A stretch of 64,000 nt of DNA from Flavobacteriaceae bacterium MAR_2010_72 (lineage in GTDB: Bacteria; Bacteroidota; Bacteroidia; Flavobacteriales; Flavobacteriaceae), in the NCBI GenBank assembly GCA_003550275.1, contig QXCW01000002.1, positions 3,161,501 to 3,225,500 on the forward strand, given 5' to 3'. Below, piece after piece: positions 1,604 through 6,755 of this stretch. The notes below the pieces were generated by a model, which was given only the letters and a program-made list of their open reading frames with translations, did not search any database and was not told where the DNA came from. Each line of letters starts with the position of its first letter. Position 1 is the stretch's first letter. A program made the position numbers and the translations under genes.

Positions 1604-2824
1604 TTACACTCTTCTATTTGCCAATAACGGTGGTGGCTCGCCGGTAAATGGATTCCATCTGCTAATGCTTTTTGCTTCCATTCCCGCTGCTGCAATAACG
1701 GCTCGATCTCCATAGCGTTCACGCATTTTGTCTATAGCCTGACTTAAATGAAGGTGTTTTTCATTGTCCTCAAACAGGTTGACTTGATGACCGCCCTCAA
1801 CCAAATGGCTAAACTTTACACCTATTAACCGCACCAAGAGTCTTCGGTTATAGAGCTTTTGAAACAACTCCAATACCACGGGAATGATATTATGGTCCAT
1901 AGCGCTATAAGGAATATGCTGTTGTTGAGTATAGGTTTGAAAATCAGAATACCTGATCTTAAAGGTCACGCAGGCTGTTAGTTTATTTCCGCGGCGTAAT
2001 TGATAGGCCAAATTTTCGGCCATGGCAATAATGATTCCTTTTAGCTTGACCACATCGGTAGTGTCTTTATTGAAGGTGCGTTCAGTAGAGATGGATTTCC
2101 GCTCGTGATATTGTACCACAGGACTATTGTCTATGCCGTTGGCTTTTTTCCAAATGACCAGTCCATTTTTCCCAAGCACCCTGTGCATCAAATCCATGGG
2201 CATTTCCTGTACGGTTTGAATGCGCTTTATCCCCAAATCGCAGAGTGATTTATAGGTCACTTGGCCAACCATTGGGATCTTTCGAATGGACAAAGGTGCC
2301 AAAAATGGCTTTTCGGTACCTTTAATAATCTGTAACTGATTATTGGGTTTGGCTTCGCCAGTTGCAATTTTAGAAACGGTTTTGTTAGCAGATAGTCCAA
2401 ATGAAATGGGCAATCCTGTTTCCTTGATGATACGTTGTCGCAATTCGGAAGCCAATTTATGGCAGCCAAAAAACCTGTCCATTCCTGTGAGGTCAATATA
2501 AAATTCATCAATGGATGTTTTTTCGTATAGAGGTACTGCTTCCTTTATGACATCAGTTACATTTTTTGAAAACTTGGTATAGACACCAGAGTTTCCACGA
2601 AGCACAATAGCTTCAGGACAAAGCATTTTTGCCAACCGCATGGGCATTGCAGAATGCACTCCAAATTTACGCGCCTCATAACTGCATGAGGCTACAACCC
2701 CACGATCACTTGTGCCTCCAATGAGTACTGGCTTCCCAACAAGCCGGCTGTCAATCAAGCGCTCACAGGATACAAAAAAGGTGTCTAGATCCATGTGTAC
2801 AATAGTCCTGTTTTCTAAAATCAT
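1604..2824 (-). CDS. dinB: DNA polymerase IV (Y-family translesion polymerase)
   Basis: A 406-residue Y-family polymerase. Catalytic acidic residues are intact: Asp12 in VHMDLDTFF and Asp106/Glu107 in KTSIDEFYIDLTG, so it is an active enzyme and not an ImuB-type catalytic-dead partner. A helix-hairpin-helix thumb region (MVGQVTYKSLCDLGI) and a little-finger domain follow. The C-terminus ends in a conserved tail (WNPFTGEPPPLLANRR). Its start overlaps the dnaE stop by four bases (ATGA), so both are translated from one mRNA. The pairing with a DnaE paralogue and a divergent LexA-like repressor points to damage-inducible error-prone synthesis; the inducibility is inferred. Confidence 0.93.
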   Translation of the reverse strand: MILENRTIVHMDLDTFFVSCERLIDSRLVGKPVLIGGTSDRGVVASCSYEARKFGVHSAMPMRLAKMLCPEAIVLRGNSGVYTKFSKNVTDVIKEAVPLYEKTSIDEFYIDLTGMDRFFGCHKLASELRQRIIKETGLPISFGLSANKTVSKIATGEAKPNNQLQIIKGTEKPFLAPLSIRKIPMVGQVTYKSLCDLGIKRIQTVQEMPMDLMHRVLGKNGLVIWKKANGIDNSPVVQYHERKSISTERTFNKDTTDVVKLKGIIIAMAENLAYQLRRGNKLTACVTFKIRYSDFQTYTQQQHIPYSAMDHNIIPVVLELFQKLYNRRLLVRLIGVKFSHLVEGGHQVNLFEDNEKHLHLSQAIDKMRERYGDRAVIAAAGMEAKSISRWNPFTGEPPPLLANRRV

Positions 2825-5793
2825 ACCTCAATAGCTTTAATAACATCACTATATCTTGGGTCTTCAATAACCGCTAACTTATGCATGGAAACAACTTCTA
2901 TATTAGCACAGTCAAATTCTTCGATAACCTTCCCAGTTATCTTATAGATCCCTGGCCCCCTAAATGGAAATTTGGCAGCAACAGATGGAAAATGGACCGT
3001 ATCAATAAAATCGCCATTACGATCCAAAAAAGTTCCAAAATACATGGTTTTTTCATTTTTTGTTATCGTATTTTTTCTTGTAATCAAATAACCTTCAATA
3101 GTGATGACCTTGTTTTTATATTCTATAAGGTCTTTTGCCTTTAATCTGTTTTGATGAGGTATGGCCAACAGTTCAAAAGGGTTACAAAGCGGAAATCCCA
3201 ATAGTTCCATTTCATCAAAAGCGTTTTCCAAAAAAGTGCTTGGCAATTCAGGCATTTTATAGTTGATACGGTCCATTTTGAACAGTGTAATTGTGGGTTC
3301 TTCAAAAGCCTCTTTATTGATTTTGAGATGAGCTTCCCAAAGCAATTCCCGTTTGTTCATCCCTGTAAACCTAAAGGCATTTATTTTTATCAATATTGAG
3401 ATCTGTTCCACCGAAATAGAAACGCGATCAATAAAATTCTCCAGACTTTTATAGAGGCCGTGTTTTTGACGTTCCGCAATGAGTTTTTTTATGGCTTTTG
3501 TTTCCAGTGACTGTAAAAACACAAACCCTAAATAAATGGTTTTGTCCTGTATAATGGCTTCATTAAAACTAGTGTTTACGCAAGGAGGTTCAATAATGCC
3601 GTCATGCATTCTAGCTTCGTGTACATACAATTCGGTACGGTAAAATCCTCCAAAATTGTTGATGGTTGCTACCATATATTCCAAAGGAAAATAGGCTTTC
3701 AAAAACAAACTCTGATAACTTTCTACCGCATAGGAAGCCGAATGTCCCTTGGCAAATGCGTAGCCTGCAAAACTTTCAATTTGCCTCCAGATTTCCTTGG
3801 TAAGATGCTCTGGTTTTCCATTGGATTTACAGTTGTCAAAAAATTGCTGTTTTACCATCAAAAATTCATCCCTAGACCGAAATTTCCCCGACATGCCGCG
3901 TCGTAACCTATCAGCCTCCCCCAAACTTAATCCCCCAAAAAGATGAGCCACTTTAATCACATCTTCTTGATAAACCATAACGCCATAGGTCTCTGGCATA
4001 ATATTGAGCAATACTGGATGCGCATCTTGTCTTCTTTCAGGATAACGATAGCGCAAAATATATTCACGCATCATACCTGACTTGGACACACCTGGACGAA
4101 TGACAGAACTGGCTGCCACCAAGCCCAGATAATTATCGACCTGTAACTTTTTTAAAAGCATCCGCATAGCAGGGGACTCTACATAAAAACAACCAATAGC
4201 TTTAGCATTTCGCAATAAATACTTGATACGCTCATCCTGTTTAAACCGTTTGATATCATGAATGTCTATTGGCGGTTCTTCAGGACGATTATATTTCACC
4301 ACCTCTAAAGTGTCCTTGATTTTTCCCAGACCGCGCTGGCTTAAAATATCGAATTTGTAAAGCCCAATGTCTTCGGCAACCACCATATCAAATTGTGTTG
4401 TAGGGAATCCTTTTGGAGGCATAAAAGTTGCCGTGTAATAATGAATGGGGCGTTCTGAAATGATGATTCCACTAGCATGGATACCTAAATAATTTGGAAA
4501 CCCGTCAATATAACTGCTGTATTTAATGACCAACTGCGATAATTTATCTAAACCCTCAAGGTTATAGTTTCCTTTAGTAAGCACATCCATTTCAGCTTTT
4601 GGCAACCCAAATACTTTTCCAAGTTCTCTTACAGAGGCTCTAAACTTAAAGGTGTTATAGACTGTAAGGAGTGCTGTATTTTTAAAATTCTTAAAAATAA
4701 ATTGCGTAATATCGTCGCGATCGGCCCATGAAAAATCAATGTCGAAATCGGGAGGATTTTTTCGAAACACATTTATAAATCGTTCAAAATACAGGTCTAA
4801 CTCAACAGGATCAACATCAGTTATACGCAATAGGTAAGCAACAATACTATTGGCTCCACTACCACGACCAACATAAAAATAACCTTTGTTTCGAGCATAT
4901 TCCAGAATACGCCAATTGATTAGAAAATAGGAAACAAAGCCTTTCAGTTTTATAACATCCAATTCCTTTGCTACACGGTCATAGATTTTTTTATCAGAAT
5001 TCGGATAACGATATGCTATGCCTTTGTAGGTCAACTTTTCCAGCAATTCATAATCTGAATCTTCATTTAAGGTAAATGACTTTTGATTATTTGGTGTTTC
5101 TTTTGAAAAGTCAAATTCAATAGTACAACTTTCTAAAAGCGATGTGGTATTTTTTAAAAGCTCGGGGAAATCTTTATACATTTCACAAAGCTCGTCATAA
5201 GACAACATCATATCTGTCTGTTGACCTTGCTCACTTCTTGGAAGTTTGCTTAACAGGGTATTATTGTCAATCGCCCTTAACAAACGATGGGTATTATATC
5301 CTTTTTTGTTTTCAAAGGAAACCGTTTGCAAGACCACCAACTTGCTTCGAAAGGCATTCCATTTTGAAAACTTCAGTTTATTGAGGTCTTGAGGTTTGAT
5401 CCCTAAAAATTCGTTTGCTTTTAAGCAATAGGCTTTATTGTGAACATAAGGATACACTACAAAAGTGTTGCTGAGTTGAGGAGCTTGTTCAGGGATTTTT
5501 AATTCAGAATCATGTAAAAATTGAGATAAATAGGCATTTATGTTTTGAAAACCAATATTGTTTTTTGCAATCAAAATAAAATGCTGCTTGGCACCACTTC
5601 TAAAATCGACACCCAAAACAGGTTTGATCTTATATTTTGGAGAAAGGCGTACAATGTCTAAACAGGCCGAAGTCGTGTTGATATCGGTCAATGCCAGTGT
5701 TTGCAAGCTGTTTTTTGAAGCTATTGCAAGTAATCGCTCTGGTTTTATAGTGCCATAGCGCAAACTAAAATATGTGTGACAATTAAGGTACAT
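2821..5793 (-). CDS. DNA polymerase III alpha subunit paralogue (DnaE2-like, error-prone)
   Basis: A 990-residue C-family polymerase, shorter than a replicative DnaE (about 1150-1450). It has an N-terminal PHP domain (1 to about 200), the palm with GRGSGANS (309-316) and the catalytic PPDFDIDF (347-354; Asp351 and Asp353), a further Asp in GLYKFDIL, a helix-hairpin-helix region and a C-terminal OB fold. The PHP metal site looks degenerate: the usual TDH reads TDI at 36-38 and the first His of the HxH motif is Asn4. Operon with dinB, divergent from the S24 repressor. Known DnaE2-type cassettes do mutagenic translesion synthesis. A -7 box lies 13 bases before the ATG, so the leader is very short. 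Confidence 0.88.
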   Translation of the reverse strand: MYLNCHTYFSLRYGTIKPERLLAIASKNSLQTLALTDINTTSACLDIVRLSPKYKIKPVLGVDFRSGAKQHFILIAKNNIGFQNINAYLSQFLHDSELKIPEQAPQLSNTFVVYPYVHNKAYCLKANEFLGIKPQDLNKLKFSKWNAFRSKLVVLQTVSFENKKGYNTHRLLRAIDNNTLLSKLPRSEQGQQTDMMLSYDELCEMYKDFPELLKNTTSLLESCTIEFDFSKETPNNQKSFTLNEDSDYELLEKLTYKGIAYRYPNSDKKIYDRVAKELDVIKLKGFVSYFLINWRILEYARNKGYFYVGRGSGANSIVAYLLRITDVDPVELDLYFERFINVFRKNPPDFDIDFSWADRDDITQFIFKNFKNTALLTVYNTFKFRASVRELGKVFGLPKAEMDVLTKGNYNLEGLDKLSQLVIKYSSYIDGFPNYLGIHASGIIISERPIHYYTATFMPPKGFPTTQFDMVVAEDIGLYKFDILSQRGLGKIKDTLEVVKYNRPEEPPIDIHDIKRFKQDERIKYLLRNAKAIGCFYVESPAMRMLLKKLQVDNYLGLVAASSVIRPGVSKSGMMREYILRYRYPERRQDAHPVLLNIMPETYGVMVYQEDVIKVAHLFGGLSLGEADRLRRGMSGKFRSRDEFLMVKQQFFDNCKSNGKPEHLTKEIWRQIESFAGYAFAKGHSASYAVESYQSLFLKAYFPLEYMVATINNFGGFYRTELYVHEARMHDGIIEPPCVNTSFNEAIIQDKTIYLGFVFLQSLETKAIKKLIAERQKHGLYKSLENFIDRVSISVEQISILIKINAFRFTGMNKRELLWEAHLKINKEAFEEPTITLFKMDRINYKMPELPSTFLENAFDEMELLGFPLCNPFELLAIPHQNRLKAKDLIEYKNKVITIEGYLITRKNTITKNEKTMYFGTFLDRNGDFIDTVHFPSVAAKFPFRGPGIYKITGKVIEEFDCANIEVVSMHKLAVIEDPRYSDVIKAIEV

Positions 5794-5805: not shown

Positions 5806-5813
5806 CAAAAATA
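5806..5813 (-). promoter_or_regulatory. -7 promoter box of dnaE-dinB
   Basis: On the minus strand this reads TATTTTTG, a full match to the Bacteroidota TAnnTTTG box, 13 bases upstream of the dnaE start. No clear TTG -33 element is seen at the expected distance. The neighbouring dyad at 5816-5828 sits immediately upstream, where a bound repressor would block polymerase. Confidence 0.6.
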
Positions 5814-5815
5814 AG

Positions 5816-5828
5816 CTACATTATGTAG
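5816..5828. promoter_or_regulatory. Candidate operator of the LexA-like repressor
   Basis: CTACATTATGTAG is a perfect dyad with six-base arms around a central T. It lies between the divergent -7 boxes of dnaE (5806-5813, minus) and of the XRE-S24 gene (5840-5847, plus), the standard position for a repressor controlling both its own gene and the damage-response operon. The dyad is seen directly; binding by the S24 repressor is inferred. Confidence 0.6.
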
Positions 5829-5839
5829 TTTTTATTGCC

Positions 5840-5847
5840 TATATTTG
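5840..5847 (+). promoter_or_regulatory. -7 promoter box of the XRE-S24 repressor gene
   Basis: TATATTTG matches TAnnTTTG. Transcription would begin near 5853, leaving only about four bases before the ATG at 5857 but about sixteen before the ATG at 5869, which favours the second start for the repressor. Confidence 0.6.
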
Positions 5848-5868
5848 TAGTAATTAATGTTAAAAATC

Positions 5869-6639
5869 ATGAAATATATTCAGGGCAACATAAAGCATTT
5901 GAGAGTTCTTAAAAAATTATCTCAAGAACGCTTTGCTGAAGAATTGGGTTGGTCACGATCCATGATAGGGTCGTATGAAGAAGGTCGTTCTGAGCCTCCT
6001 ATAGACCGCTTAATTGATTTGTCCAATTACTTTAATATCCCTATTGACATTTTGATTAGAAACGATTTGCGATTGGCCAAGGACACGTCGTTCATTGAGG
6101 TGGGCAATAAGCGTGTATTGTTTCCAGTTACAGTCAATGAAGGCAACGAAGACCTTATAGAAATCATTCCCGCAAAAGCATCGGCAGGCTATTTAGAAGG
6201 CTATGCCGATCCTGAATATATTGAGCAGCTTCAAAAAATAAAACTCCCTTTTTTGCCAACAGGGACACACCGTGCCTTTCCCATTAAGGGAGATTCTATG
6301 TTGCCAGTAAAGGATGGCGCCTTTGTAGTGGCAAAATTTGTTGAAGACATAAATGATGTAAAAAATGGTAGAACCTATATTGTATTGACCAAAGATGATG
6401 GGTTGGTCTATAAGCGAGTCTATAATAAGATTAAGGATAACGGCACCTTATTGTTGAGTAGCGACAATAAAGCCTATAAGGCTTACGAAGTCCATATGGA
6501 AAATATTTTGGAACTCTGGGAGTTTACCTGCTGCATCAATACCCAGGAATATGATGAAAAAGAATTGAAATTGAGCAGTATCATGAGCATGTTTCAGGAT
6601 TTAAAAGTAGAGCTCGAAGCTGTTAAAAAGATGGCATAA
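5869..6639 (+). CDS. XRE-family repressor with S24 (LexA-like) autoprotease domain
   Basis: The product has an N-terminal Cro/C1 helix-turn-helix (about 6-65; LSQERFAEELGWSRSMIGSYE) and a C-terminal S24 peptidase domain. The self-cleavage machinery is visible: an Ala-Gly site in KASAGYL (about 104-110), the catalytic Ser in KGDSML (Ser143) and the general-base Lys in VYKRV (Lys182). This is the hallmark of RecA-stimulated self-cleaving repressors such as LexA and lambda CI. Divergence from dnaE-dinB with a dyad operator between them suggests it is the SOS regulator of that mutagenesis cassette. The start at 5869 was chosen from the -7 box; 5857 is the alternative and adds four residues. Confidence 0.9.
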   Translation: MKYIQGNIKHLRVLKKLSQERFAEELGWSRSMIGSYEEGRSEPPIDRLIDLSNYFNIPIDILIRNDLRLAKDTSFIEVGNKRVLFPVTVNEGNEDLIEIIPAKASAGYLEGYADPEYIEQLQKIKLPFLPTGTHRAFPIKGDSMLPVKDGAFVVAKFVEDINDVKNGRTYIVLTKDDGLVYKRVYNKIKDNGTLLLSSDNKAYKAYEVHMENILELWEFTCCINTQEYDEKELKLSSIMSMFQDLKVELEAVKKMA

Positions 6640-6671: not shown

Positions 6672-6673
6672 AG

Positions 6674-6755
6674 TACTCAAGGTGGGAATCGAACCCACAC
6701 TCCCGAAAGAACTGGATTTTGAATCCAGCGCGTCTACCAATTCCGCCACTTGAGC
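6674..6755 (-). tRNA. tRNA-Leu (anticodon CAA)
   Basis: Read on the minus strand, the 82 bases fold as a class II tRNA: acceptor GCTCAAG/CTTGAGT (one G-U pair), D arm with GGCGGAATTGGTAGACGC as in bacterial tRNA-Leu, anticodon stem CTGGA/TCCAG around loop TTCAAAA, a variable arm (GTTCTTTCGGGAGT region), T arm GTGGG-TTCGATT-CCCAC and discriminator A. Anticodon CAA decodes UUG. The 3' CCA is not encoded and must be added by the CCA-adding enzyme. It has its own promoter at 6767-6796 and a terminator at 6641-6671. Confidence 0.96.

Follow-up and report, generated by a model that had tools for sequence, protein, structure and literature searches.

The genome of Flavobacteriaceae bacterium MAR_2010_72 carries a gene for an XRE/CI-type repressor that diverges from an operon of two DNA polymerase genes, dnaE and dinB. 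The locus sits on a 3.41-Mb contig (QXCW01000002.1) and was analyzed within a stretch of 64,000 nucleotides (positions 3,161,501 to 3,225,500), hereafter the window. A preliminary description, made from the letters of the window, had read the locus as a compact, self-contained SOS mutagenesis switch with a dyad between two promoters. The features of the locus, in window coordinates, are the following.

1604..2824, minus strand: dinB, Y-family DNA polymerase of 406 amino acids (aa), with IMS domains (Pfam) and the motifs MDLDTFF, SIDE and QVNLF
2821..5793, minus strand: dnaE, second DNA polymerase III alpha subunit of 990 aa, with PHP, alpha-NTPase, finger and HHH domains (Pfam)
5813-5806, minus strand: -7 box of the dnaE-dinB promoter, TATTTTTG; TAnnTTTG in 50/67 relatives
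5816..5828, no strand: O1, main putative operator CTAC-ATTAT-GTAG, from the dyad, a position weight matrix (PWM) and conservation
5838..5850, no strand: O2, probable weaker second operator CCTA-TATTT-GTAG, from the PWM and a family consensus
5840..5847, plus strand: -7 box of the repressor promoter, TATATTTG; TAnnTTTG in 63/67 relatives
5857..6639, plus strand: repressor of 260 aa, XRE/CI-type helix-turn-helix (HTH) with Peptidase_S24 (Pfam); Ala110-Gly111, Ser147, Lys186
6673-6755, minus strand: tRNA-Leu (caa), directly past the repressor gene

The reading frames of dinB and dnaE overlap by 4 bases, and the repressor gene is divergent from both. DnaE carries the motif PDFDIDF at residue 348, and the genome holds two dnaE genes, the other being an open frame of 1454 aa. 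In DinB, MDLDTFF at residue 11 and SIDE at residue 104 indicate that the catalytic acids are kept, and a clamp-like motif, QVNLF, stands at residue 347; the functional meanings of the three motifs are those we take them to have. The repressor may start at ATG 5869 (Met5) instead of 5857, because the matches of many relatives begin at Met5, which is invariant in 23 aligned rows.

The dyad CTACATTATGTAG at 5816-5828, located between the divergent -7 boxes of dnaE-dinB and the repressor gene, is a perfect 6-1-6 palindrome that can also be written in the 4-5-4 form CTAC-ATTAT-GTAG. The exact dyad has one match in the window (0 mismatches), and with up to two mismatches there are 3 matches against 2.17 expected by chance. 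Since some dyad with 6-bp arms and a spacer of 0-7 is present in 32.5% of Markov-random 63-mers, the dyad alone is not significant. Nor is CTAC-N5-GTAG enriched genome-wide: it occurs at 14 places, fewer than the 46 of the reversed control pattern, and 11 of the 14 are inside open reading frames (ORFs) of at least 100 aa, and those outside are O1, L003 and L012. The exact copy at L003 scores 6.2 bits with the PWM, compared with 26.1 for O1. A hairpin or terminator was considered and set aside: the L012 copy is, by eye, a terminator-like hairpin followed by T, and O1 lies between divergent starts. A chance dyad, which a single sequence leaves possible, is ruled out by the comparison of intergenic regions in relatives.

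The relatives are the best 80 of 198 stretches encoding a repressor relative; identities are 79-87%, and Gelidibacter, Winogradskyella and Tamlana are among the genera represented. The dnaE N-terminus is present in the locus for 73 of the 80, and the intergenic set comprises 67 dnaE/repressor regions of 31-399 bp, with six longer ones excluded. Exact CTAC-N5-GTAG occurs in 55 of the 67 regions with 13 different spacers, while in 200 dinucleotide-shuffled sets it averaged 0.065 regions per set and never exceeded 1; CTAC is also the commonest 4-5-4 arm when arms are counted without a preset motif. The dyad that the preliminary description had placed between two opposed TAnnTTTG boxes is thus present and widely kept. 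In a block alignment of the 80 loci, the search expression imposed CTA, TAG and a TTGCYTA-like tail, so these columns prove nothing; the first G of GTAG and TATTTG were free, and that G is kept in 77/80. A 21-bp PWM was built from 40 sites of these loci, and the best site of the locus, at least 14.8 bits, lies upstream of the repressor in 79/80 relatives, a count that is partly by construction, since many of these loci supplied training sites. This does not apply to the empty background: across the 80 loci (1.70 Mb, both strands), no site of at least 14 bits lies more than 60 bases from the repressor-upstream site. The exception to the 79 is L080 (Kordia), where the best site of the locus, at 12.3 bits, is elsewhere.

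Bacteroidetes promoters follow a -33/-7 consensus. The -7 boxes TAnnTTTG are kept in 63/67 relatives on the plus strand and 50/67 on the minus strand, and TTTG 17-23 bases upstream of the -7 box was found in 1/67 and 0/67 relatives and not in the window; the promoters are therefore not the "ideal" ones they had been called. Relative to the two promoters, O1 directly precedes the dnaE -7 box and occupies the -33 place of the repressor promoter. With the dyad inside both promoters, and the -7 boxes as conserved as the dyad, the palindrome could be a core promoter element or the site of another factor, the repressor acting elsewhere or not on dnaE-dinB. We regard this as highly improbable: the 4-5-4 geometry is that of published sites of the repressor family (Sanchez-Osuna et al. 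2021, PMC8565304), the site is found both at separated repressor genes and at separated dnaE/dinB operons, and the lack of any other site of at least 14 bits in the 80 loci argues against a general promoter element.

The separated cases comprise eight genomes, namely the 7/80 relatives without a dnaE N-terminus in the locus plus G156; two coupled genomes were also searched. A dnaE of the kind sought (E<=1e-10) is present in six of the eight; G433 and G434 have none at this threshold, and in them a site is still present at the repressor itself (25.5 and 28.1 bits). In all six separated dnaE operons an operator-like site of 16.0-31.0 bits lies upstream of the operon's first gene. G156 and G432 carry a dnaE of the same type as the window (72-75% over the N-terminal 151 aa), with sites that score 30.0 and 31.0 bits and stand about 180-210 bp away from dnaE, and the model match of G156 is beside dnaE, ~40 kb from the repressor. 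G431, G435, G436 and G437 carry a second type of dnaE (45-47%) in the order dinB-dnaE, with sites of 20.6, 20.9, 22.0 and 16.0 bits, respectively, within about 60 bp of dinB. On the repressor sides of the separated genomes the scores range from 10.1 to 31.7 bits (14.8 in G156), the weakest being L080. A single repressor homolog (E<=1e-5) is present in G431, G432, G435 and G437, and a second, more distant one at the same threshold in G156, G433, G434 and G436. The simplest reading is that the separated operons would be targeted by the repressor in trans. At three loci (L043, L062, L090), umuC and umuD lie upstream of the repressor on the same strand, with no dnaE in the locus.

The probable second operator, O2, covers the -7 box of the repressor, and its centre is 22 bp from that of O1. 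Across the 80 loci, PWM scores at this offset have a median of 3.9, and the runner-up among offsets within 60 bases reaches -6.7; the family consensus is CTTA-TATTT-GTAG, and the window has CCTA-TATTT-GTAG. Paired sites 22 bp apart are also found before dinB, with no repressor gene found nearby, at L242, L245 and, by eye, L244, and L243 has paired sites before dinB that are 23 bp apart and on opposite strands. The recurrence of the 22-bp spacing speaks for a tandem arrangement in which the two sites share a helical face, and O1 and O2 could be bound cooperatively.

To what extent the operator is used elsewhere was assessed with an operator model. In the window's genome O1 is its best match (E 5.5e-4), followed by matches inside a 128-aa ORF (E 0.137) and a 425-aa ORF (E 0.362). 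Upstream of recA, the only RecA-family match, and of umuD the best PWM scores are -7.7 and -3.0, against 26.1 for O1, and neither the 300 bp upstream of recA nor the 260 bp upstream of umuD contains CTAC-N5-GTAG, CTA-N7-TAG, CTAA-N5-TTAG or GGA-N5-TCC. The genome scan for the dyad at other promoters thus gave no other convincing operator, with recN, ruvB, uvr and splB not examined one by one. The search for a separate regulator likewise returned no other XRE-S24 repressor in the genome: Peptidase_S24 is matched twice at E<=0.001, by UmuD and the repressor, and the only other match to the repressor has E 0.07 and covers residues 7-65. Control of this genome through GGA-N5-TCC or CTAA-N5-TTAG was rejected, given no second XRE-S24 homolog and no such sites upstream of recA or umuD. 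Among 24 genomes of relatives, the best model match is at the repressor/dnaE locus in 19 (in G156 at the separated dnaE). Of 19 further matches in the relatives, 11 were opened; ten adjoin none of dnaE, dinB, umuD, umuC or the repressor, and the eleventh, L229, has a 34% paralog of the repressor in its vicinity.

In 7/80 relatives (L069, L079, L084, L087, L088, L095, L098), the gene immediately after the repressor is a umuD homolog (49-54%), and there the switch may also drive umuD. This shows that other SOS genes can be drawn in, and together with the drift of sites in group B (see below) and other relatives, and with the large regulons controlled by the regulators of published relatives (PMC8565304), it lends some weight to the view that the repressor governs a global, canonical SOS regulon, as in the GGA-N5-TCC group, through further sites too degenerate for the model to detect. 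We consider this unlikely, as the recA and umuD upstream regions lack the four motif forms and score poorly, one model match alone has E <0.1, and none of the 11 opened extra matches stands beside dnaE, dinB, umuD or umuC.

The repressor protein was compared with a family sample of 199 genomes, of which 135 have a homolog at E<=1e-10 among the matches listed. Identities to the window's protein fall into bands: group A at 77-85%, group B at 60-69% (32 fetched), and the rest below 45%. Pfam assigns HTH_3 (PF01381) to residues 12-66 of the repressor (E=1.4e-14), followed by Peptidase_S24 (E=1.2e-8), and finds no LexA DNA-binding domain; canonical LexA has a winged-helix DNA-binding domain. All matches from a sequence search of solved structures fall on the HTH or close to it (best E 4.2e-4). 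The retention of Ala-Gly, Ser and Lys that had been noted earlier extends well beyond the window: Ala110-Gly111, Ser147 and Lys186 are identical in 78/81 group-A rows, the other three being gapped, and the same residues are present in 32/32 group-B rows. The remaining 54 rows belong to neither the GGA nor the CTAA set; all 54 keep Ser and Lys, and Gly is preceded by Ala in 31 of them, by Met in 22 and by Asp in 1.

From these residues and from published relatives we infer damage induction and RecA-dependent cleavage. Some phage repressors use anti-repressors, and the protein could answer a signal other than RecA filaments or need an anti-repressor, in which case the locus would be no SOS switch. 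This seems very unlikely, given that the target is a translesion-type polymerase pair and that mitomycin induces a published Elizabethkingia anophelis pair arranged in the same way (PMC8565304).

In a quick tree, which excludes the three published proteins of PMC8565304, groups A and B form one set (Shimodaira-Hasegawa-like approximate likelihood ratio test, SH-aLRT, 96), apart from a GGA-bearing clade. Their sister is a set of order-level regulators, many of them divergent from dinB; at one of its members (L184) the repressor/dinB gap contains TTACAATTTGTAA, the reverse complement of the E. anophelis site TTAC-AAATT-GTAA. GGA-N5-TCC lies near the start of eight fetched proteins of 31-34% identity, six of which have arrays of 3-4 upstream sites (L144, L146, L148, L149, L152, L154; three of the sites stand 18-19 and 22-23 bp apart). 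These proteins and one more row form the GGA-bearing clade, which matches the published Flavobacteriaceae regulators. Among 26 group-A genomes, including the window's, G178 is the one for which a second homolog (E<=1e-10) appears among the matches listed. Exact CTAC-N5-GTAG is found upstream in 4/32 group-B rows (L100, L113, L114, L120), and one genome, G171, holds both such a group-B protein (L114) and a GGA-type one (L148).

CTAA-N5-TTAG dyads stand upstream of six family members (L145, L147, L150, L151, L155, L158), which have Glu and Arg at the alignment positions of the catalytic Ser and Lys. Of two tested with Pfam, one has an S24 domain below threshold, and the six are possibly non-cleavable relatives; lacking Ser and Lys and sitting on a very long branch, they were rejected as the published CTAA group. 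Another genome (G393) has four paralogs (L182-L185), three with a divergent dinB and with palindromes near the starts that differ, possibly parallel switches. A search of viral-contig candidates, which reached close relatives only, found no repressor relative, and two phage matches are weak (33% and 28%). Seven plasmid matches of 30-42% indicate that the cassette can travel, although a phage or plasmid origin of the window's copy was set aside, as this copy lies on the 3.41-Mb contig. The repressor lies opposite dinB-dnaE on a mobilizable plasmid of Chryseobacterium shandongense (L266, NZ_CP033916.1) and on a conjugative plasmid of Emticicia oligotrophica (L267, NC_018742.1), where an SOS response-associated peptidase gene adjoins the repressor locus.

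Both halves of the locus have published counterparts. Sanchez-Osuna et al. (PMC8565304) describe XRE/CI-type S24 repressors that run the SOS response in Bacteroidetes, with two main motifs, GGA-N5-TCC and CTAA-N5-TTAG, along with electrophoretic mobility shift assays, mitomycin induction and motif loss accompanying paralogy. In their account, both regulator groups are present in many Flavobacteriaceae, and small regulons occur near clades with absent or diverged regulators. In E. anophelis, TTAC-AAATT-GTAA lies at a repressor opposite an error-prone polymerase, and the pair is mitomycin-inducible. The window's repressor resembles this family in its CI-type HTH, its S24 domain with Ala-Gly, Ser and Lys, its 4-5-4 palindrome at its own promoter and its error-prone polymerase targets. 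It differs in its arms, CTAC/GTAG instead of CTAA/TTAG, TTAC/GTAA or GGA/TCC, in an apparently one-locus regulon with recA and umuDC outside, in being the sole XRE-S24 repressor found in its genome, and in the probable tandem O1-O2 at 22 bp. Neither main motif is present in the 64-bp region examined, which is compatible with membership, as that study also accepted diverged palindromes such as TTAC-N5-GTAA. It proposes LexA in a functional sense, for the regulator of a canonical SOS network of repair, translesion synthesis and cell-cycle arrest, and in this genome a non-exhaustive scan found no operator at recA or umuDC. The repressor is XRE-type and not a classical LexA, with HTH_3 and no LexA domain, but where the preliminary description set this apart from classical LexA control, it is no exception and follows the published rule in the phylum.

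As for the polymerases, Timinskas and Venclovas 2019 (PMC6511836) report that Bacteroidetes pair an active Y-family polymerase (PolY2) with DnaE2 in a putative mutasome; the PolY2 cluster is marked by a RecA-NT-like motif. The window likewise encodes an active-looking Y-family polymerase and a second DnaE in one operon; that account treats the polymerases, whereas here a repressor and an operator are described too. The system also resembles ImuA-ImuB-DnaE2 in having a Y-family protein and a second DnaE under what would be a damage-responsive repressor. ImuB is catalytically dead, whereas the DinB here keeps its catalytic acids; the contrast with ImuB drawn earlier is borne out by MDLDTFF and SIDE, and an active pair with DnaE2 had already been published. 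No imuA was seen in the two genes scanned after the operon, and the genome has one PF00154 match (recA), no search with an ImuA model having been made. Francisella FddR (Perez-Varela et al. 2026, PMC13148647) is a phage-like S24 repressor, autoregulated, with divergent genes and a compact network; it belongs to a different clade, and its operator is GTG-N11-CAC. The literature searched yielded neither a CTAC-N5-GTAG operator, nor its occurrence at loci that have come apart, nor a one-locus regulon; no word in the main text of PMC8565304 begins with CTAC or GTAG, and the motif may be listed among the diverged palindromes of its Supplementary Table S10. Because PMC8565304 describes the repressor family and PMC6511836 the polymerase pair, the switch of the window is a further case of a published kind; what looks specific to the lineage is the CTAC-N5-GTAG sequence, the tandem layout and the restriction of the regulon to one locus.

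Taken together, the locus is likely a switch released by DNA damage, in which a repressor that represses its own gene and can be cleaved with the aid of RecA controls a single mutagenesis operon. The Bacteroidetes-type S24 repressor would bind O1, and probably O2, and thereby shut down two promoters, its own and that of the divergent dnaE-dinB operon. Upon DNA damage, RecA filaments formed on the damaged DNA would trigger cleavage at Ala110-Gly111 by Ser147/Lys186, and this would release the translesion polymerase pair, a DnaE2-like protein and an active DinB, after which autoregulation would reset the switch. The regulon in the window's genome appears to be this one locus. Of the compact, self-contained SOS switch proposed at the outset, the control unit stands on the anatomy of the locus, the conservation of residues and operator, the operator at both partners when they are apart and the lack, in the genome, of another convincing site and of another XRE-S24 repressor; the damage part is predicted.

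Several observations weigh against this reading. Repressor binding, cleavage, damage induction and mutagenesis are inferred. The dyad is not universal: 12/67 intergenic regions lack exact CTAC-N5-GTAG, the repressor side of L080 reaches only 10.1 bits, and in many other group-B rows the left CTAC is kept while, by eye, the right half is eroded and AGYA-N5-TRCT lies 11 bp on. In the 24 relatives' genomes the best model match is elsewhere in 3 (G009, G152, G178) and absent in 2 (G118, G121); dyads are eroded in G118, G152 and G009, and there is no good dyad in G121 and G178. Weak sites could have escaped the model scan of the window's genome, in which 150 of 3593 first-look candidates were scored. 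The 16.0 bits of G437 alone are no proof, because a site inside a gene of the window's genome (L006) scores 16.5. O2 reaches only 2.2 bits in the window, and its conservation may be that of the promoter, since it overlaps the conserved -7 box. The AlphaFold2 model of the repressor is poor (23-row alignment; mean predicted local distance difference test, pLDDT, 55.4), with residues 75-158 and 225-260 below 50; residues 11-60 and parts of 161-220 exceed 70, and the model has helices and no strands up to residue 68.

The kind of switch is ordinary for the phylum, with lineage-specific details. Tentatively, and with slightly less than even confidence, we hypothesize that in a Gelidibacter/Winogradskyella-like lineage LexA-type SOS control has shrunk to a single O1-O2 pair, 22 bp or two helical turns apart and perhaps cooperative like lambda CI, where the repressor runs itself and one polymerase operon, recA and umuDC have left, and arms, spacing and partner drift between clades. 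If this is true, CTAC-N5-GTAG, AGYA-N5-TRCT and TTAC-N5-GTAA would form a natural series of repressor/operator co-change. The locus would offer a clean, minimal and testable case of damage-controlled mutagenesis in Bacteroidota, with one repressor, one operator region and one polymerase pair, and its relatives, whether coupled, apart or bearing different dyads, provide a comparison set for changes in S24 recognition and for the shrinkage of SOS regulons.
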